The notes under the pieces are model-generated. The model saw only the letters and a list, made by a program, of their open reading frames with translations, was not told the DNA's origin and did not search any database. The translations under genes were made by a program, and so were the position numbers. Source: Clostridiaceae bacterium (GTDB lineage Bacteria; Bacillota; Clostridia; Lachnospirales; Lachnospiraceae). From it: a DNA stretch of 48,343 nt. Positions 36,332-48,343 of this stretch are shown here, piece by piece; position 1 is the stretch's first letter, and every line of letters begins with the position of its first letter. Location: contig JAJQGL010000072.1 of NCBI GenBank assembly GCA_021200535.1, positions 1 through 48,343 of the forward strand. The letters are read 5' to 3'.

Positions 36332-38470
36332 TTACGGTTCCTCTGTACTCTCACCGGAGCGGTTAAAGCTTAGGTTTTGTGCCGTTCCTTTTTTCGTGTC
36401 ATAGCTGTAAGTGCCGCTAACAGCGCCTCCATCTTCTGTATTTGCCGCAAAGCTGATTTTAAGTATATCGTCCTCCAGCTCCTGTACATTGTAAATGACA
36501 GCGTCATTTTCCGCGAAAACAATTTCATCTTCCCCATACTGCTGAAACAACCCGGACAGAACGCTGTTTCCGTCCTCCTGCGAAAAATATACTTTTTTGC
36601 GTTTGACATCATAAATCGTAAAGGTCTGAGAGGATGTTCCATTGTACAGTAAAAGGGCATACCTGTTTTCTTCCTCCCCGGAGGATAACCACATCAGATC
36701 ACAATAATAACCACGGATATCCTTCCATTTTTTCGAATGGCTGCGGGGCGATACAGTCACTGACTGAACCTCCTGCGTCCCTGTGCTGTCCTGTTTTGTT
36801 GTGACAAGGATACAGGTATCGCCATCCTCATTTTCCAGGGTATATTCCTGCACCTCCCCTTCCTGCGCGGTATTCTCTTCCCCCTGCCGGTAAGCCTCGA
36901 TCTGCTCCTGTGTCAGCTCCTGCTTTTCGTAAGTTTGCAGATCCTCCTGCCAGACATAATAATTGACTCCCTGCGCAGCGACAGCCTGAAAAACGTTATC
37001 CGTTCCGTCTAACAGATCAAAGTTTGCGGATTCACACTGGCTTTCCTGATCTGTAATCACATAAATCCCCTCACAGAGCAGCGGCAAATCCTGATCTTCA
37101 ATATTAATCAGGCTATAGGAATATGTCTTATAATCCTCCGCCTGCAATGCAGCGCCTGATGTGACCGCCGTATGCTCAAAATCTTTCTGGGTAAACGCTA
37201 CCTTCTGTCCGAGCACAATCTCCTGTACCGAATCCCCATTATAATCTCCTGCGCACAATGCCATGCCCTTCGTAAATGTATATTCATTCATTCCGGCTGC
37301 ACCAAAATAATCCGCCACATCACACGCTGTTATCTCATTTCCAAAACTATCATACATGACAAGCTGAAACGAACCCTGACAGGTTGCTTTTCCCTCTGTT
37401 CCATCTGTCATTTCCAGCTGGACAACCCGGTCAAGCCCCTCCGGCGACGTGCTGGTAACCTTTGCCACAACAAGATTATCTGACTCGCCAAAAAGAGCTT
37501 CTTCCTCTGTTTCCGTTCCTCCGCCCCAGGTGCCCCCTGCCCATGCCAGACGGATTGGCAGCAAAAAGAAACACAAAAGCAGCGTCAGCGAGAGAAGCAA
37601 AACCGCCGACAGCCCATTTCCTGCAGAATCCTGCCGCTGATACATTAATCTTCTGGCACGCCCGGCTGTTCCTCTCTCCCCGACACTGACCATGGACAAA
37701 AGCGACCGCGGTGTCTCCCTGGTCTCCCTGTCAAAGTTTAAGACAGCCTGCGCATACTCCCGCTGTCTCTTCCAGTGATTTGCCCGCAATGTCCGATCAT
37801 CCAGATGCATTTCCAAATCAATATTCCACCAATAATAATAGAGCCAAAACACCGGATTGAACCAGTGCAGCGCAGTAATAAACGTTACCAGCGCCCGGCG
37901 GATGCTGTCCCATCTGTGTTTTTCCATGTGGCGCAAAAGCCAGAATAAATCCCTTGTCTGAAACCCTTTCGGCAAATACAGCCTTCTGTGTATCACACCC
38001 AGCTGCACCGGCGACCTGAGCAGCGCAGCTTCGTAAATATTTTCTCCCAGCAGCGCGGCACCCCGCAGTGCGCGCCGAAGCCTTATCTGATAAAACGCAG
38101 CACAAAAAAGCACGGCTGCCACACCAAAAATCCAGATAATAGCACAGCCCCGAAATCCCACTGTAGTTGTGATCTCCCCTTCAAAAACAGCCCGCCAGCT
38201 CCGCATGACACCGCTGTCCTTTTCCAGCGTCAGCCCAATATCCGCCAAAAGCTGATGAAACTTCCGGTTCCATGCCGGTACTGCACAAAAAATGCTGGAA
38301 AGCGCAACCGGACACACGCTGCGCAGATAGACAATCCTCCACTCCCAGATCATATGCTTCCGCTCCAGGTTCCTCAAAAAAAACCGCACGAGCAATACCA
38401 GCGGCAGCAGACAGGCAGAGACAATGCCCATTGAAAAAACAGTATAAAAAACACGATAAAGCCAAACCAT
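36332..38470 (-). CDS. M56 (BlaR1-like) membrane protein with degenerate zinc motif and outside sensor domain
   Basis: A 712-residue protein. The N-terminal 320 residues resemble the BlaR1/MecR1 peptidase M56 domain: four membrane helices, SPVQLGVIHRRLYLP, then the place of the zinc motif, and ALHWFNPVFWLYYYWWNIDLE. At the zinc motif (residues 181-185) the sequence is HMEKH instead of HExxH, and the downstream ligand region reads DLEMHLDD, where the family has EMACDE. Proteolysis is therefore unlikely. A C-terminal outside domain of about 370 residues includes GDYNGDSVQEIVLG, an FG-GAP/calcium-loop-like piece. No BlaI-type repressor is adjacent; two MacB-like transporters follow. A receptor role for the transporters is inference. 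AGGAG lies 12 nt from the ATG. Confidence 0.75.
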   Translation of the reverse strand: MVWLYRVFYTVFSMGIVSACLLPLVLLVRFFLRNLERKHMIWEWRIVYLRSVCPVALSSIFCAVPAWNRKFHQLLADIGLTLEKDSGVMRSWRAVFEGEITTTVGFRGCAIIWIFGVAAVLFCAAFYQIRLRRALRGAALLGENIYEAALLRSPVQLGVIHRRLYLPKGFQTRDLFWLLRHMEKHRWDSIRRALVTFITALHWFNPVFWLYYYWWNIDLEMHLDDRTLRANHWKRQREYAQAVLNFDRETRETPRSLLSMVSVGERGTAGRARRLMYQRQDSAGNGLSAVLLLSLTLLLCFFLLPIRLAWAGGTWGGGTETEEEALFGESDNLVVAKVTSTSPEGLDRVVQLEMTDGTEGKATCQGSFQLVMYDSFGNEITACDVADYFGAAGMNEYTFTKGMALCAGDYNGDSVQEIVLGQKVAFTQKDFEHTAVTSGAALQAEDYKTYSYSLINIEDQDLPLLCEGIYVITDQESQCESANFDLLDGTDNVFQAVAAQGVNYYVWQEDLQTYEKQELTQEQIEAYRQGEENTAQEGEVQEYTLENEDGDTCILVTTKQDSTGTQEVQSVTVSPRSHSKKWKDIRGYYCDLMWLSSGEEENRYALLLYNGTSSQTFTIYDVKRKKVYFSQEDGNSVLSGLFQQYGEDEIVFAENDAVIYNVQELEDDILKISFAANTEDGGAVSGTYSYDTKKGTAQNLSFNRSGESTEEP

Positions 38471-38531
38471 TCTGTATAAGCACTCCTGATAATTTCTTCA
38501 TAAGTTCATTAAATATAAATCATCTGGCTTT

Positions 38532-38561
38532 ATTTTATCTCTCCATGCCCTTTCCTGTCAA
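38532..38561 (-). promoter_or_regulatory. promoter of the M56 gene
   Basis: On the minus strand a perfect TTGACA (38556-38561), 18-bp spacer and TAAAAT (38532-38537), about 60 nt before the ATG. Confidence 0.6.
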
Positions 38562-38580
38562 CGGTATAAAAAGGCATGAG

Positions 38581-38609
38581 TTGCGGCACAATAACAAATA
38601 TATTATAAT
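38581..38609 (+). promoter_or_regulatory. promoter of the NAD synthase gene
   Basis: TTGCGG (38581-38586), 17 bp, perfect TATAAT (38604-38609). Transcription would start near 38616, giving a leader of about 200 nt that contains all of the hairpin element. Confidence 0.65.
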
Positions 38610-38642
38610 ACAATACATACCCTTTTTAATAAATATACCACG

Positions 38643-38818
38643 GAATGGAGAATAGCGTGAAAAATCACACTGATGTGCTGATTTTTCACAATCCTCTGTA
38701 AGAGGATTTGGCTATTTGTGCCGGAGCGTCACAAATTAGCCCTAGTGGCAGATGAGAAATTGCCTTCGCAAATTTCTCATCGCCCCGTCGCGTAAAACGC
38801 TCCAGAATGGAGAATAGC
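38643..38818 (+). promoter_or_regulatory. hairpin-rich leader element flanked by two copies of the nadE ribosome binding site
   Basis: GAATGGAGAATAGC occurs at 38643-38656 and 38805-38818, followed by GTGAAA and ATGAAA. Between lie H1 GTGAAAAATCA/TGATTTTTCAC (38657-38667 with 38679-38689, perfect 11 bp); H2 AATCCTCT/AGAGGATT (38690-38697 with 38701-38708); H3 GGCTATTTGTG/CACAAATTAGCC (38710-38720 with 38730-38741, one bulge); H4 GATGAGAAATT/AATTTCTCATC (38751-38761 with 38771-38781). The H3 loop contains GGAGCGT (38723-38729), complementary to ACGCTCC (38797-38803); the end of ACGCTCC can instead pair with the GGAG of the gene's ribosome binding site (38809-38812). The first copy opens a 14-residue frame (VKNHTDVLIFHNPL, 38657-38701). 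It may be a cis-regulatory RNA, a mobile palindromic element, or both. Confidence 0.7.
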
Positions 38819-40768
38819 ATGAAAGATGGATTTATAAAAGCCGCCGCGGTCACAACCAGCATCGAGGTGGGAAATACGAATTATAATACAGAGCAAATCA
38901 TAAACGCAATAAACGAAGCAGCAAAAAACCATGTCAGGCTCGCTGTTTTCCCGGAGCTTTGTCTGACCGGATACACCTGCAATGACCTCTTTTTGCAAAA
39001 TACTCTTCTGGCAGGCGCTTTATCCGGTTTAAAACAAATTCTGAAAGCCACGGAGGGAACAGACATGCTGGTACTGATCGGCTTCCCTTTTTACTACACA
39101 AATACCCTGTACAACGTAGCAGGCGTTTTATTTGAAGGAAAGCTGCTTGGCATTGTTCCAAAGCAATTTATTCCAAATTATTCTGAATTTTACGAGGCAA
39201 GATATTTTTCCGCTCCTGATTTTCCGTGTGATTTTATACAAATTCCCGAGCTGGGCGACTGCGGAAAAAATATCCCATTTGGCACAGACCTTTTGTTTCA
39301 GGCTGCAAATCTGCCTGAATTTGTACTTGGAATTGATATCTGCGAAGATCTCTGGATGCCCATCCCGCCTTCCTGTGAACATGCCCTGGCAGGCGCTACT
39401 GTGATTGCCAATCTCTCCGCCAGCGATGAAACCACCGGAAAAGATATTTACCGCCGCGACCTTGTATGCAGCCAGTCAGCGCGCCTGATCAGCGGATATA
39501 TTTACGCAGATGCCGGGGAAGGTGAATCTTCAACCGACCTGGTTTTTTCCGCCCACAACTTAATTGCGGAAAATGGCACCCTCCTTCAGGAATCGCACCG
39601 CTTTGAAAACGGCATGATCTGCAGCGAAATTGATCTGGGCAGACTGGTCAGTGAACGCCGCCGCATGACAACCTATACCAAAGGCAAACCCCAGACACAC
39701 ACATACCATACGCAGACGTTCCTCTTCCAAAGCCTGGAGGATACAAAACTGACGCGCCGCTATGCGCAGACGCCGTTCGTTCCGCAGGACAAGGCGGACC
39801 GCGACCGCCGCTGCAGCGAAATACTTCGCATTCAGGCAATGGGCCTGAAAAAACGCCTCACACATACGCACTGTACAAATGCCGTGATCGGAATCTCCGG
39901 CGGACTGGATTCCACCCTTGCACTTCTCGTAACAGCAAAGGCTTTTGACCTGTGCGGAATCGACCGCAGCCGCATTTTGTGCGTTACCATGCCATGCTTT
40001 GGCACAACCGACCGAACCTACCAAAACGCCTGTGAGCTGACAAACATTCTCGGCGCCACGTTAAAAGAAGTACCAATCCACGAAGCAGTAACGCTTCATT
40101 TCCGGGATATCGGACACGACAGCTCCATTCATGACGTTACCTATGAAAATGCACAGGCACGGCAACGCACACTGATTCTAATGAATCTTGCCAATCAGAA
40201 TAACGGTCTTGTCATCGGCACTGGCGATATGTCAGAGCTTGCACTCGGCTGGGCGACTTACAACGGCGACCACATGTCCATGTACGGCGTAAACTGCTCC
40301 ATCCCCAAAACACTTGTCCGCTATCTGGTTCAGTATTATGCAGAAACCACAGACGAAAAAAAACTGCATGACATCCTTTCCGATGTCTTAGACACTCCGG
40401 TCAGCCCAGAGCTTCTCCCTCCAAAGGACGGGGAAATCTCCCAAAAAACAGAAGACATTGTCGGACCGTACGAGCTGCATGATTTTTATTTGTATTACAT
40501 GATGCGCTTCGGCTACACTCCGTCAAAAATCTTCCGTCTGGCAAATTACGCATTTTCCGGTCAGTACAGCCAGGCAGTCATCTACAAATGGCTCCGTACC
40601 TTTTACCGGCGCTTTTTTTCACAGCAGTTTAAGCGTTCCTGTCTGCCGGATGGGCCTAAGGTCGGCAGCGTTGCGCTTTCCCCGCGCGGGGACTGGCGTA
40701 TGCCAAGTGATGCGTCTGTAAGCCTCTGGATGAAGGAGCTGGATGAACTGGAAAACAAGCTGCAGTAA
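38819..40768 (+). CDS. nadE: glutamine-dependent NAD(+) synthase
   Basis: A 649-residue two-domain enzyme that makes NAD from nicotinic acid adenine dinucleotide, ATP and glutamine in the cytosol. The N-terminal nitrilase-type glutaminase (about 1-290) shows the catalytic triad as Glu46 (VFPELCLTGY), Lys near 115 (GIVPKQFIPNY) and Cys near 175 (GIDICEDLW). The C-terminal synthetase (about 330-640) has the PP-loop GISGGLDSTLAL (about 358-369), IGTGDMSELALGWATYNGD and VNCSIPKTLVRYL. Length matches the bacterial long form. The ATG at 38819 has GGAG 6 nt upstream; an ATG 12 nt earlier overlaps that site. The gene is alone on its strand between the M56 gene and addA, with the hairpin leader upstream. 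Only 30 bp separate its stop from that of addA. Confidence 0.97.
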   Translation: MKDGFIKAAAVTTSIEVGNTNYNTEQIINAINEAAKNHVRLAVFPELCLTGYTCNDLFLQNTLLAGALSGLKQILKATEGTDMLVLIGFPFYYTNTLYNVAGVLFEGKLLGIVPKQFIPNYSEFYEARYFSAPDFPCDFIQIPELGDCGKNIPFGTDLLFQAANLPEFVLGIDICEDLWMPIPPSCEHALAGATVIANLSASDETTGKDIYRRDLVCSQSARLISGYIYADAGEGESSTDLVFSAHNLIAENGTLLQESHRFENGMICSEIDLGRLVSERRRMTTYTKGKPQTHTYHTQTFLFQSLEDTKLTRRYAQTPFVPQDKADRDRRCSEILRIQAMGLKKRLTHTHCTNAVIGISGGLDSTLALLVTAKAFDLCGIDRSRILCVTMPCFGTTDRTYQNACELTNILGATLKEVPIHEAVTLHFRDIGHDSSIHDVTYENAQARQRTLILMNLANQNNGLVIGTGDMSELALGWATYNGDHMSMYGVNCSIPKTLVRYLVQYYAETTDEKKLHDILSDVLDTPVSPELLPPKDGEISQKTEDIVGPYELHDFYLYYMMRFGYTPSKIFRLANYAFSGQYSQAVIYKWLRTFYRRFFSQQFKRSCLPDGPKVGSVALSPRGDWRMPSDASVSLWMKELDELENKLQ

Positions 40769-43700: not shown

Positions 43701-44581
43701 GTTTTATCCCGAATTGCCTTAAGACGCGCCGGATTATATGCCTCAAATAGCGCATAAAAATCCTGATATCCCTTTGCTTTGCCAAGCGCTTCCAGATAAG
43801 CAATATCCGAACGGATTGCCGCCTCATACGCAGCCGGCCCGTCTGGCCTCCGGCAAATCTCCAAAACGCTTTTTGCCACGGTCAGATATTCCGATACATA
43901 TTTGTGCAGCATCTCTGTCAGCTGCCGCACCCAGGCCGTCTCTTCCATCTCCTGCAAAGATTGTATCTGGTACATTTCCATGCATTCATTCAGCCATTCT
44001 TCCGGCCAGGGATAACTGGTAGAAATATTGTATAAAGTAAACACCAGCTCTTCGACCGCACTGTCCGTCCGTCCGGTCGAAAAAATATCCGTAAAGCGAA
44101 GAAAAGCACTGTCCGGCTCTTCCTTCGCAGCCGCATACTTTTGTTCCAAAAGTTCTGCCAGCACATCCTGCTTCATCAGCTCCAGATCCGTCTCATCCCC
44201 CACGGAAAATACAGGGTCGAGATCAATGACATGGAAATAATTCCGGATGACCGACTGGCAGAAGCTGTCAATCGTCGTTATCTGCGCCGTGTGAAGCAAG
44301 CTTGCCTGTTTCTGCAAATGCTGGTTTTCCGGCTGCTCCTGAAGCTTTTCCTCCAACGCATTTTCAATGCGGGCGCGCATCTCTGCTGCTGCCGCCTTTG
44401 TAAATGTAACCACCAGCAGCCTGTCAATATCCTTCGGCGAATCCCCCTCCGTCACCTGTGAAATAATGCGTTCAACCAAGACCGCTGTCTTTCCGGAACC
44501 TGCAGCAGCAGAAACCAAAATATTTTTCCCCCGCAAATCAATCACTTGCTGCTGATCTGCTGTCCATTTTGGATTACCCAT
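40799..44581 (-). CDS. addA: ATP-dependent helicase/nuclease subunit A (AddA)
   Basis: A 1260-residue UvrD-type helicase fused to a RecB-family nuclease, part of the AddAB complex that processes double-strand breaks to Chi-like sites for RecA loading. Motifs: Q motif and Walker A (KWTADQQQVIDLRGKNILVS, SAAAGSGKTAVL), Walker B LTDEYQDSN, motif III MVGDVKQSIYKFRLARP, motif V MTIHKSKGLEFPIVFVAG, motif VI YVAFTRAKEKL, and C-terminal nuclease residues in GTLYHLVMQHF, GIIDAYF and IVLVDYKTDAV. The ATG at 44581 is used (GGGAG 6 nt upstream); it overlaps the end of addB by 8 bp, so translation is coupled. A charged segment rich in ESGQ/ESRQ (about residues 1045-1065) is a low-complexity insertion before the nuclease domain. 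Confidence 0.97.
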   Translation of the reverse strand: MGNPKWTADQQQVIDLRGKNILVSAAAGSGKTAVLVERIISQVTEGDSPKDIDRLLVVTFTKAAAAEMRARIENALEEKLQEQPENQHLQKQASLLHTAQITTIDSFCQSVIRNYFHVIDLDPVFSVGDETDLELMKQDVLAELLEQKYAAAKEEPDSAFLRFTDIFSTGRTDSAVEELVFTLYNISTSYPWPEEWLNECMEMYQIQSLQEMEETAWVRQLTEMLHKYVSEYLTVAKSVLEICRRPDGPAAYEAAIRSDIAYLEALGKAKGYQDFYALFEAYNPARLKAIRDKTVSPGEKELAKNLRESYQKNGLAELKRKYFFQSAEEMLSDLQEMAPAVTELIRLVQDFGCAFAEKKREEGLLDFADMEHFALQILVVRDEKGIRPSETAKELQEYYEEVLTDEYQDSNFVQELLLTSICRGPEEKPYLFMVGDVKQSIYKFRLARPELFLEKYKRYGGAESREQRIDLRQNFRSRASVLESANAVFEKIMIEQLGGIVYDQDVRLVPGAAFPETDRRIAGKTEMVLIEQKGNQEAVSKRALEAAVIGEKIRDMVLGDNPLYVQDKQGYRPVRYGDIAILLRSLSGWSEEFIEVLNDMGIPAYADTRTGYFTSLEVDTILNLLHVIDNPRQDIPLAAVLRSCLVGTTDEELAWLGTMPQELDFWDKIKAFLEKKEAGLWDGRLYEKLYRKLSLFYDRLQRYQELSKTRSVYELLRRIFDETDYYQIMSAMPSGEKRKANLDILLQQAILFAENGHRGVYGFTRYIESLQKANVDFGEANVDGENAAAVRIMTIHKSKGLEFPIVFVAGMGKRFNLMDARKGTIIDGDYGVGCDYVDLKMRIKQPTLLKRFMADQIVSGTLAEEIRILYVAFTRAKEKLIITGVASGLEKKLSVWATRSLYQNFYQLSGAQTYLDWIMPSLLGRQGIRCSVEKAAANLEAAINFSDLVSDDLFGLEIYFPEGVLQKGKDELADSAEQYRMLKNWDTERVYDRAMHEALEWEMEYQYPYRQEAGLPVKVSVSELKRRSVERAEQLEEEVAEYLDFESGQAAETESGQMDDTESRQADEIEIPRPAFLQEKQLSGAARGTLYHLVMQHFPYQEIRESGQKWTEKEYRVFLAQMVQEGYLSQEEAALLDVRRFVVFFDTEIGARMARAWQEGTLRREQSFMLGISAKELYPEQDSEEMIVVQGIIDAYFTEGDHIVLVDYKTDAVKRGQGSRLAEKYRAQLDYYARALKRLTGREVSEKVIYSFALGEEIFL

Positions 44582-47500
44582 TTTCTTCTCCCTCATCTCC
44601 ATTTTTCTGTTTCTTTTCCCTGATCTGGTACAAAACGGCATCATCACTGAGTTTTTCTAGCACCCGGTAACGGTTTCCGGCAATTCTCCGGTCAAAGCGG
44701 CAGATGCTGTGATATGGACAGTACCGGCACGCACTCTCACCGGATGCATCTGCCCGAAGATAAGGATTCACCGCTATTTCCCCTGCCATAATTTCATTTT
44801 TTATCTGCCAGAGCTTATCCTCGGTATATTTCATCAAATCCTGAAAGTCCTCTGTTGTAACCGTTTTGGAAATTTTTTTCAAATGTCCCGTTTTATCTGT
44901 CGCCGCCGGAATCACTGCAGATGATTTATCCGGCGCGAGGCCTCCTCCTTCTGTCCCAAAATCACAATCCATCGCAGGCAGCACCGGGTCATCCTCATTG
45001 ACCAGCCCATCCATTTTCAGGCTTGCAAGAATCTGGTCCTCTATCTTTTCTTTCCCCGCCTTGCCCTCAATCATCGGATCATCAATCTGATAATACAGCA
45101 CGCCCGCCGGGATTACCAGTTTCTTTTCCGCTGTCTGCTTATCCTCCACGGCCGCTTTCATATAAATCATTAGCTGCATCTGCAAACCGTAGTACAAATC
45201 GGACAGGGAGATGTTCTTTTTCCCTGTTTTATAATCAATCACCTTTATATAATCTGCATTGCCGTCCAGCATGCTGTCTATGCGGTCAATCCGTCCAATC
45301 AGCCGCAGGTCATTTTCCCAGCCTGACGTATTTTTCTCCTGCCCGCTCCCTACGGCACGCTCCTGCCCATCAAACTCTTTTACGATCTCCCGCCCGCTTG
45401 CCCGGTGCAATACCTCAAACGTAAATTCGCTGTCCACTGTCTTAAATTTCCCCAGCTTCATCTGTTTGGTAATCGCCCAGATTGTCCGGTCTAAAATCCG
45501 GCGAAGCCTGCTGATCAGATAAGTATCCCGTTCTGTCGCATACAAAAGCCCATTTTTATAGCGCTCTACCGTTTCATTCATGCACATATCCGCTTCAACC
45601 CGCTGTTCCTCTTCCGGTATATCCTCCCAGCTTTTCCCCCGTGCAAGCATTTTTTGGGTATATAAATCCAGTGCTTCATGAACAATATTTCCAATGTCGA
45701 AAAATTCCACCTGATGCCCGGCCCGTTCTTTCAAATGCAGCCCATACTGCATAAAATACGAAAACGCACATGCCGCATACCGTTCAAACTGTGAGGTACT
45801 CGCCGTCAGAGTGTCACGGTATAGCGCCTTTACCACTTCTTTTGAAAGCGGACTTTGCTCTTCCCGGTAAAATGCTGCGTCAAGCAGTCTGTCTGACAGC
45901 TGCTTTCTCTCCGTATCGCCGGCATAATATGAAAATACCTCCTGCCACCTTGCATCCGTATACTGCCTGTTCCGCAAGCCCTGAATCAAAAATCCAACGC
46001 CTCCTGTTGTCCCCAGCAGATGGCGTTCATCTGTTTCCTGTTCCTCAATCACCGTAGTAATTTCCGGAAAGAGCTTTTTGATCCGGTCAATAATATATGC
46101 CGGATTTCTCGCCTTTCCGTCATTCCCTGTCTCGCAGTATGTCAGATACAAATGCCTGGACGGCTTTGTCAGGTTCAAATACAGATAATATTGTTCTGTA
46201 TAGACCGCATCCCGCATGGTAGGCGCCAGCTCAAATTCCGCATCCGCCAGAAACATCCTCTCTGAATCAGAAATAACGCCCCCTCTGCTGCCGCCTTTTG
46301 GCAAATTACAGTCGTTCATTCCCAGGAAAAATAAATGCTGAATATGCGCAAGCCGTGTCCGGTTCATATCCCCGACCAAAACCTGATCAACACCGGGCGG
46401 AATCAAACCGATTCTCGCCTCGTCAAAGCCAGTGTCAAGAAGCTCTTTAAACTCCTTTAGCTTCATTTCTTCATCACCCAAAAGTGACACCAGCCTGTCC
46501 ATTACCCCAAGAACAATCTCATAAATCTGGTCATATTCCTTTGCCAGGGAACGCTCTCCGGCCTCTTCAAAGCTCTTCTGCAGCTTCTTAACCGCAATAT
46601 AATATTCCTGCTCCTCCATCCACTCACAGATTGCCTGTACATATTCCCGAACCGTGTGCGTTCCCTTGCCGATACTTTCGTATAATTTCCCCAGCTGTTC
46701 CACCGTCTCCAGCCGGACTGTGTCCAGCTCCAGCTCCAATTCCCTCTTTTTCTCCGCGTCTGCACTGCGAAATACCCCGTCTATCCTCCACACCTCACAC
46801 CATTTTTTGTAACCCCGGATTCCTGTCGCACGCAGAAAATTGTCCAAAAGATAGCTTTGTTCCTCTGTCGCCTTCGAAAAGAAATTCTTCTCAAAAACCA
46901 TGATCTTTTCTGCCTGAAAGCTGTTTTGAAAAATAGCAAGCACACATCGGAGCAATTCAATAAATGGATGCTCTAAAATATTTTTCTTCTGGTCTACGAA
47001 GCATGGAATCCCGCACCTCCCGAAAACCTCCTTTGCCAGAACGCCGTAAGTCTCCAGATCACCTGTAATCACAGCAATATCACGGTATCTGCAGCCTTCT
47101 TCCTGCAAAAGCTGTTTCATCTTCTGTGCAACAAATTCCACTTCGTTTTCCGGCTGTTTCAGCAAATGAATGGAAATGTCCTTTACACTGCCCGAATAAG
47201 TCTGAACCGGATAACGGAACAGATTTCTTTCCAGATGATTCAAACCCTCTGCTGCCGCAAAACGGCTCTGTTCCGTTTTTCCCCCACACCAGATTTCTGG
47301 ACAGATTTCAATCCTGTTTTCTGCCGCTATTTTTCGCAGCCGAATAATCGTCTGCTGGCTCATATAAAAAAGACTGTGCTTTGGCAGCGGCTTTATCAAG
47401 GCTTCAGAAGAAGCCTTTGCTTCGGAAGAAGCCTTTGCTTTGAAAGAAGCCTTTGCTTTGAAAGAAGCCTTTGCTTTGAAAGAAGCCTTTGCTTTAGAAG

Positions 47501-48254
47501 GAACCATCGCTTTGGAAACTATGTCTTCTGCAGTATCCATGGTTACAGTAACATATACCTTTTTCGCCACCCGCAAAAGCTTTTCAATAAACTGGTACTG
47601 CGTTGGCGTAAACCCGGTAAAGCCATCCAGGCAGATTGTGCTGCCGCGCAGAAGGTCTGAATCCTCCGCAACCGCCGAAAGCACGGTCAGTATTTCTTCT
47701 GATGTAATATAATGATCTTCCAGATACGCAGTAAACCCCTGATAAATTTTCTTCATATCTTCCAGCTTTTTCGCCAGTGCCGGATGCTTTCCTGCCGCCT
47801 GAATCATTTCATCAATCACTGTTTCATCCGCACCATATTGCATCAGCTCTGACAGAAAAGATTTTATTTCCTGTACATACCCTTTTTTGTGAATATTTTT
47901 TCCAAAATATGCAAGCTCGTCCTCCAGATTTTCCAGTACCTTTTTCAGGATCATTGTCTTGTCCATATCATCCAGAACCGGAAGGCGGCACGAGCCTGTT
48001 TCCTCAAACACACGAAAAGCAAGTCTGAGAAAACTCTGAACATCTATATTCATAATTCCTTTGACTTCACTGATACGAATCAGCTCTTTCTGCGTCTGCA
48101 TGGTAAACTGTTCCGGCACAATAAAAATAAAATTATTCTCCGGGGATTCTCCATGGGAACTCTTTTGAAGCCGTTTTGCCTCTTCCGATAAATAATGCTG
48201 TATATAATAAGTTTTTCCCCGTCCGGATCCTCCCAAAATTAGTTGTAATGACAT
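44574..48254 (-). CDS. addB: ATP-dependent helicase/nuclease subunit B (AddB)
   Basis: A 1226-residue partner of AddA. N-terminal Walker A GGSGRGKTYYI, then an inactivated helicase-like fold, the VGDMNRTRLAHIQHLFFLGMND segment, and a C-terminal nuclease domain with IKVIDYKTGKK. The four-cysteine iron-sulphur site is complete: one Cys in YAACAFSYFMQYG and three in CRYCPYHSIC. Start set at the ATG at 48254, 4 nt after GGGGAG; the frame continues upstream to 48308 without a site. Odd feature: residues about 250-285 are a 6-residue repeat (KAKASF) inserted between two helices of the helicase-like part. First gene of addBA; its promoter is probably beyond the window edge. Confidence 0.96.
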   Translation of the reverse strand: MSLQLILGGSGRGKTYYIQHYLSEEAKRLQKSSHGESPENNFIFIVPEQFTMQTQKELIRISEVKGIMNIDVQSFLRLAFRVFEETGSCRLPVLDDMDKTMILKKVLENLEDELAYFGKNIHKKGYVQEIKSFLSELMQYGADETVIDEMIQAAGKHPALAKKLEDMKKIYQGFTAYLEDHYITSEEILTVLSAVAEDSDLLRGSTICLDGFTGFTPTQYQFIEKLLRVAKKVYVTVTMDTAEDIVSKAMVPSKAKASFKAKASFKAKASFKAKASSEAKASSEALIKPLPKHSLFYMSQQTIIRLRKIAAENRIEICPEIWCGGKTEQSRFAAAEGLNHLERNLFRYPVQTYSGSVKDISIHLLKQPENEVEFVAQKMKQLLQEEGCRYRDIAVITGDLETYGVLAKEVFGRCGIPCFVDQKKNILEHPFIELLRCVLAIFQNSFQAEKIMVFEKNFFSKATEEQSYLLDNFLRATGIRGYKKWCEVWRIDGVFRSADAEKKRELELELDTVRLETVEQLGKLYESIGKGTHTVREYVQAICEWMEEQEYYIAVKKLQKSFEEAGERSLAKEYDQIYEIVLGVMDRLVSLLGDEEMKLKEFKELLDTGFDEARIGLIPPGVDQVLVGDMNRTRLAHIQHLFFLGMNDCNLPKGGSRGGVISDSERMFLADAEFELAPTMRDAVYTEQYYLYLNLTKPSRHLYLTYCETGNDGKARNPAYIIDRIKKLFPEITTVIEEQETDERHLLGTTGGVGFLIQGLRNRQYTDARWQEVFSYYAGDTERKQLSDRLLDAAFYREEQSPLSKEVVKALYRDTLTASTSQFERYAACAFSYFMQYGLHLKERAGHQVEFFDIGNIVHEALDLYTQKMLARGKSWEDIPEEEQRVEADMCMNETVERYKNGLLYATERDTYLISRLRRILDRTIWAITKQMKLGKFKTVDSEFTFEVLHRASGREIVKEFDGQERAVGSGQEKNTSGWENDLRLIGRIDRIDSMLDGNADYIKVIDYKTGKKNISLSDLYYGLQMQLMIYMKAAVEDKQTAEKKLVIPAGVLYYQIDDPMIEGKAGKEKIEDQILASLKMDGLVNEDDPVLPAMDCDFGTEGGGLAPDKSSAVIPAATDKTGHLKKISKTVTTEDFQDLMKYTEDKLWQIKNEIMAGEIAVNPYLRADASGESACRYCPYHSICRFDRRIAGNRYRVLEKLSDDAVLYQIREKKQKNGDEGEENG
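47398..47510 (-). repeat. 18-bp minisatellite inside addB
   Basis: About six units of GAAGCCTTTGCTTTGAAA (plus strand) between 47398 and 47510, encoding KAKASF/KAKASS/EAKASS. It keeps the frame and adds a basic, flexible loop not needed for the AddB fold. Confidence 0.92.
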
Positions 48255-48343
48255 AATACTCCCCATTCCGAAGCGTTTTAAAAGCCGCGCCGCTGCCGAC
48301 ACTTTCAAATATCTCTTTCGGCTCTGCGTTTTAAATGCATCAC

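Follow-up and report, generated by a model that had tools for sequence, protein, structure and literature searches.

Probable mobile structured elements located between the Shine-Dalgarno sequence and the start codon of genes in Lachnospiraceae

The BOX, RUP and SPRITE repeats of pneumococci are described as small, dispersed and structured (BOX also being modular), are thought to be parasitic and non-autonomous, and may influence co-transcribed genes (PMC3049150). Small modular repeats such as BOX are the closest kind to the element described here, which is likewise small, dispersed, structured and modular (PMC3049150). Unlike the pneumococcal repeats as described, the element occupies the spacer that separates the Shine-Dalgarno (SD) sequence from the start codon, and in many copies an SD flanks it on either side; it possesses a pseudoknot core and is without an Rfam match.

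REP sequences are dispersed hairpins situated outside genes, and HEARO and omega RNAs insert beside ATGA or GTGA. The element resembles REP sequences with RAYT (Y1) transposases in consisting of dispersed hairpins, but is found in the spacer between SD and start codon, with some high-copy genomes lacking a Y1 match. With HEARO and omega RNAs it shares the character of a structured, putatively mobile RNA near ATG-like motifs, while differing from them in having no Rfam covariance match and in being too short for a nuclease gene. Like MITEs it is short, apparently non-autonomous and highly base-paired, with an apparent target duplication in some copies, the SD block being repeated in part of them; unlike MITEs it is strictly oriented and positioned at start codons, and no terminal inverted repeats were found to join the ends of the copy in the nadE leader, the pair at 38625-38634/38830-38839 lying outside the repeated part. 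The likeness to the nadA and pnuC motif NAD riboswitches consists of its lying, in this single genome, in the leader of a gene for NAD synthesis, while the absence of an Rfam match and a distribution unconnected with NAD distinguish the element from them. No comparable element was found in the literature among the matches listed, with subscription papers lying outside the coverage of that search.

The copy in the nadE leader

The window, being the whole stretch of 48,343 nucleotides analysed, was found to contain one copy of the element in the leader of the NAD synthase gene nadE and a second, apparently decayed copy (Table 1), the latter directly preceding an ATG (48254-48252) within and near the start of ORF 44574-48308 at the contig edge. 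The four hairpins described in the initial annotation (11, 8, about 11 and 11 bp) were recovered by an inverted-repeat search, and both its complement between the H3 loop and the strand ahead of the SD and the alternative, SD-hiding pairing of CTCC with GGAG were present as claimed. For H3, the inverted-repeat tool returned arms at 38714-38723/38727-38736 (10 nt, 90%), with the helix used in the analysis being 38710-38720/38730-38741 with a single bulge. A 23-nt direct repeat (38643-38665/38805-38827, 91% identity), absent from that annotation, was identified flanking the hairpins, which places an SD on either side of them in the nadE leader. The left of these is probably the native SD of nadE. 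A good promoter had also been claimed upstream; no site on the + strand passed the threshold of the promoter scan used, the three sites in 38460-38860 being all on the - strand, and a TATAAT with a weak -35 was seen by eye. The short leader ORF was not conserved among copies on inspection by eye, with GTG TAA or other frames being present in some, and a conserved leader peptide was rejected on the same inspection as frames and stops vary between copies.

Table 1. Features of the two copies of the element in the window and of the nadE gene
Feature	Coordinates	Strand	Remarks
Left SD block, GAATGGAGAATAGC	38643..38656	+	GGAG 38647-38650; direct repeat with 38805-38818
Leader ORF, 14 codons, GTG...TAA	38657..38701	+	From translation
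Hairpin H1, 5' module, 11 bp	38657..38689	+	Arms 38657-38667/38679-38689
Hairpin H2, optional module, 8 bp	38690..38708	+	Arms 38690-38697/38701-38708
Hairpin H3, core	38710..38741	+	11/11 pairs changed on both sides in alignment A3
Pseudoknot 5' strand, H3 loop, GGAGCGT	38723..38729	+	4/7 pairs changed on both sides in alignment A3
Hairpin H4, optional module of varied sequences, 11 bp	38751..38781	+	Arms 38751-38761/38771-38781
Pseudoknot 3' strand, ACGCTCC	38797..38803	+	CTCC 38800-38803 alternatively pairs with SD
Right SD block	38805..38818	+	GGAG 38809-38812; repeat of left block
nadE, NAD synthase with carbon-nitrogen hydrolase domain	38819..40768	+	Pfam NAD_synthase 1.3e-28, CN_hydrolase 5.9e-18
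Second copy, weak, apparently decayed	48249..48315	-	R1 22.7 bits, E 0.0018

Structure and occurrence of the copies

Forty loci of the same genome (L001-L020, L041-L060) were inspected, from which an alignment of 33 distinct core copies (A2) was prepared, L016 holding the copy already taken from L011, and L018, L050, L051, L056, L057 and L060 being left out as they yielded no complete core. A covariance model (R1) with a structure of H3 and the anti-SD hairpin, without the pseudoknot, was built from A2, and 78 matches from several genomes, spread over 73 loci, were fitted to it (A3). The core was found to consist of H3, the strand ACGCTCC and, joining the two, a region in which H4 may or may not be present; GGAATGGAG-N6-ATG usually comes next, the spacing from SD to ATG being 6 in 83/111 copies according to the first script. 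H1 and H2 are optional upstream modules; H1 and H4 occur in different sequences, H2 is missing from some other copies and H4 is missing or replaced in others.

Covariation in the stems across relatives, which the initial annotation had set as its test, was present for H3 and the pseudoknot in A3. The two helices pair in 96.0% of cells, with 15/18 pairs changed on both sides and a covariation score of 0.268 (0.108 when shuffled, at most 0.047 when slid). In A2, which holds 33 close copies of one genome, covariation was weak, being seen in 2/18 pairs, a count equalled or exceeded in 119/500 shuffles, with a score of 0.099 (0.081 when shuffled, at most 0.062 when slid). The pseudoknot score of each copy's own loop with its own tail (83 distinct) was 20.2, against 16.8 for re-paired loops and tails (maximum 17.8 of 300), a control that preserves neither relatedness nor genome. 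Matched loops and tails include GGAGCGT/ACGCTCC, GAAGCGT/ACGCTTC, GAGCGA/TCGCTC, GAGCAA/TTGCTC and GCAGGCAC/GTGCCTGC. In A3, G.U outnumbered A.C both in H3 (58 against 12, one outer pair supplying 44 G.U and 6 A.C) and in the pseudoknot (25 against 5), an excess that points to structure on the mRNA-sense strand. The element is a structured RNA with covarying helices, and the support for its pseudoknot comes from copies of more than one genome. In many copies H1, too, was seen by eye to have changes in one arm that are matched in the other, and template-switch (hairpin-templated) repair could partly contribute to the compensatory changes in the stems, H1 included.

A blastn search of the same genome with the nadE leader segment yielded 56 pieces with an E of 1 or less. 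With R1, whose E-values are approximate, matches at E up to 0.01 were identified in 20/41 genomes, numbering 51 in this genome, 43 in G012, 30 in G020, 26 in G010, 13 in G022 and 11 in G031, a member of another family of the order; no R1 match was found in 6/24 genomes of the same genus (G002, G007, G015, G016, G018, G021). Wider searches, in which strict filters were applied and few candidates were scored per genome so that the counts are lower bounds, gave a match at E 1e-6 in at least 27/200 sampled genomes of the family and in at least 4/391 genomes of the class, this genome being included in both and all four of the latter being of the same family, which is taken as Lachnospiraceae since the best named nadE relatives belong there. 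On contigs C27, C54, C64 and C72 of G101 the matches start at base 1, and draft assemblies therefore probably undercount the copies. No blastn match to the element was found in the phage or plasmid collections. A phage or plasmid origin was considered and rejected, the only exact-pattern match in viral_contigs (L240) reading as part of an ordinary gene, with no element seen around it.

Start codons, sites without the element and SD blocks

Of the 111 copies in A2 and A3, 95 were found to be followed by an SD and a start codon that opens an ORF of 60 codons or more, while the same rule, which also accepts frames open to the locus end, was satisfied by 932/6551 (14%) of the SD-like tetramers in those loci, the copies' own included. 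The sixteen failures comprise four upstream members of tandem arrays (L181, L224, L226, L236), one copy that meets the locus end (L212) and 11 without a clear gene. As R1 itself contains an SD and a start codon, a further model (R2) was built from 33 truncated copies from which both were removed, and 17/20 newly fetched G222 copies found with it passed the same rule, this sample and the first both being drawn from model matches, mainly in element-rich genomes. Of the three copies that failed, L343 and L351 were upstream tandem copies, as is L358, which passes, yet with an ORF that begins inside the next element.

Pfam searches with 20/95 of the downstream proteins identified unrelated families (two proteins being without a match), including phosphofructokinase, pyrroline-5-carboxylate reductase, enoyl-CoA hydratase, MatE, M50 peptidase, UvrD-type helicase, galactokinase, DnaJ and cytidylate kinase. 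Few of the 95 proteins, many of which are cut by the locus end, were alike between genomes, the exceptions being a nadE pair (the second member having been found via nadE), a MatE pair (41%), another pair (35%) and a group of ABC-type ATPases. Downstream genes so unrelated and rarely shared argue against a dedicated regulon. At L053 (~455-490), the element was seen by eye to adjoin directly a terminator-like hairpin that carries a T run, leaving the gene behind it without an obvious promoter.

Orthologous sites were then compared. No R1 match was found in the nadE leader in 10/10 same-genus genomes where the start was located (to an accuracy of one base), nor in three further same-genus nadE loci, which may or may not include the leader. 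Of 80 named nadE loci, three of which include fewer than 100 leader bases, L127 matched strongly and L108 weakly, no match with an E of 1 or lower being found in the remaining 78. The nadE leader of G009 bears a different insert, another dispersed sequence composed of a GTGAAAAATAAATT hairpin and a AGCAAACG..GTTTGCT hairpin followed by an SD. This sequence was also met in L026 (~1880-2010, - strand), L295-L299, L304, L305 and L306, was seen by eye directly before start codons in several loci, and may share the H1 module with the element. At pfkA, the arrangement GAGGAGGATA-[element]-TTATG of this genome corresponds to AAGGAGGACATT-ATG or a similar sequence in the orthologues, and no R1 match was found at the start codon in 24/24 fetched same-genus orthologues (25 other genomes having a pfkA match). 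The insertion in this genome thus sits 3' of the native SD and two bases before the ATG. Elsewhere in the pfkA loci, R1 matches were present behind pfkA in L282 (E 0.00028) and in L270 (E 0.9), and the sequence upstream of the SD in L280 resembles, by eye, a decayed 3' end of the element.

The left edge of the element could be parsed in 71 of the 111 copies, the edge being misplaced in some of these (e.g. L049, L197, L229). An SD-like tetramer was present within 14 bases before H1 in 43/71 parsed copies, and the left edge ends in TA in 41/71. The longest stretch common to the left and right SD blocks had a mean of 5.58, against 4.83 between copies of the same genome (0/1000 shuffles reaching the observed mean), and at least 8 nt were common to both blocks in 15/71 copies (shuffles: mean 6.7, maximum 12). 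The G222 copies (23/30) gave 8.78 against 6.02 (0/5000 shuffles), with at least 10 nt in common in 11/23. Clear repeats of the SD block were identified in L211, L203, L345, L341, L127 and L001, while the blocks differ in L002, L003 and L195, L002 and L003 being near-identical copies. This likeness fits duplication of the block followed by divergence, and equally an exchange between homologous SD-like stretches. In tandem arrays (L224, L226, L236, L181, L343, L351, L358), a copy was found to follow the SD of the preceding copy.

Similar copies at unrelated loci together with orthologous sites without the element are the general marks of a mobile dispersed repeat. With good confidence, though with mobility itself inferred from such comparisons, we regard the copies as a family of non-autonomous mobile structured elements of about 80-170 nt, in gene-sense orientation, that insert between the SD and the start codon. 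The target would be the SD region, a block of which would be duplicated or exchanged upon insertion, and its duplication would leave the invaded gene with an SD that can still serve its start codon. It is suggested more tentatively that these elements constitute a new class, which would insert at the ribosome-binding site by recognising or annealing to the SD, would keep its insertions translatable through an SD on both sides, could stack in tandem, would rely on neither a Y1 transposase nor a reverse transcriptase of the host, and whose pseudoknot would gate the new SD.

Predicted SD gating, alternative explanations and implications

The nadE leader segment gave a folding z of -5.9, with 0/200 shuffles folding equally well. 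Predictions that left out the pseudoknot gave each of the four SD bases of nadE a probability of 0.004-0.068 of being unpaired, and those in which 38797-38803 was constrained to its pseudoknotted state gave 0.297-0.998. For the bare pseudoknot duplex the predicted energy was -12.7 kcal/mol in the nadE copy and -16.9 kcal/mol in the commoner form, the cost of closing the pseudoknot being left out, against -5.3 and -4.9 kcal/mol, respectively, for the SD-hiding hairpin. As the pseudoknot is predicted to be the stronger, the default state of the new SD is probably open. In 31/59 distinct 3' ends each of the four SD residues has a possible upstream pairing partner (shuffles: mean 4.2, maximum 9), and in 8/59 parsed 3' ends two or fewer have one, the script having placed some SDs at AAGG.

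An effect of the element on translation is likely, and a dedicated ligand is not needed for it. The pseudoknot would hold the new SD open in the mRNA, and if H3 were opened, for example by a ribosome moving along the leader ORF, CTCC would be free to mask this SD. The old SD would after insertion face this short ORF, and a ribosome translating it could, by inference from the predicted structures, open H1-H3 and thereby close the new SD. Of the translational RNA switch proposed in the initial annotation, the architecture and the SD-hiding alternative are real and a general effect on translation is possible, but its NAD ligand is unsupported, near-identical copies preceding genes with no evident NAD link, which is in substance the finding that the annotation itself had named as refuting it.

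These foldings also bear on the possibility that the copies form a large regulon under a shared translational regulator, in which a pseudoknot/anti-SD switch would respond to a common signal (protein, metabolite or temperature). The constant position next to the SD, the covarying pseudoknot, an SD predicted to be closed without the pseudoknot and open with it, and the 3' ends in which the whole SD can pair upstream are all in keeping with such a regulator. However, the genes behind the copies are unrelated and seldom alike between genomes, occurrence within the genus is patchy, and some 3' ends pair two or fewer SD residues, and we consider this explanation improbable.

Mobilisation of the element in the manner proposed for REP or PATE sequences, through a Y1 transposase of the IS200/IS605 type, appears highly improbable. 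The hairpins on the 5' side, the frequent TA at the left edge and three PF01797 matches in this genome (G000) would agree with such a mover, but PF01797 was undetected in G010, G020 and G022, which have 26, 30 and 13 R1 matches and are 90, 87 and 60% complete, and the SD block is apparently duplicated, while insertion of IS200/IS605 elements is not known to generate a duplication. Reverse transcriptase (PF00078) was undetected in G012, G010, G006 and G022 (each with at least 12 R1 matches, the genomes being 60-95% complete). These two were the movers searched for, and both were rejected as each was undetected in some high-copy, albeit incomplete, genomes.

An NAD-pathway riboswitch of nadE, the reading of the initial annotation, agrees with the location of this copy and with a leader whose predicted folding can switch, but is practically ruled out by the distribution described above (2/80 named nadE loci, 0/10 same-genus leaders), by copies that precede unrelated genes and by the lack of any element match at the Rfam gathering score. 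The three Rfam matches below that score were to miRNA and HTH-XRE models at E 0.43 or worse, and no known Rfam family was accepted for the element. A T-box leader unrelated to the element was identified in L215 (815-1008, - strand; 93.6 against a gathering score of 93).

With a family of mobile elements as the preferred explanation, some Lachnospiraceae may each translate dozens of their genes from leaders that one mobile family has rewritten. If this is true, the element would avoid harm to its host genes by targeting and duplicating the SD. It might then also account for annotated spurious small ORFs and N-terminal extensions, although this is a guess. Near-identical pseudoknot leaders on unrelated genes would provide a natural series for the effects of leader structure on translation.
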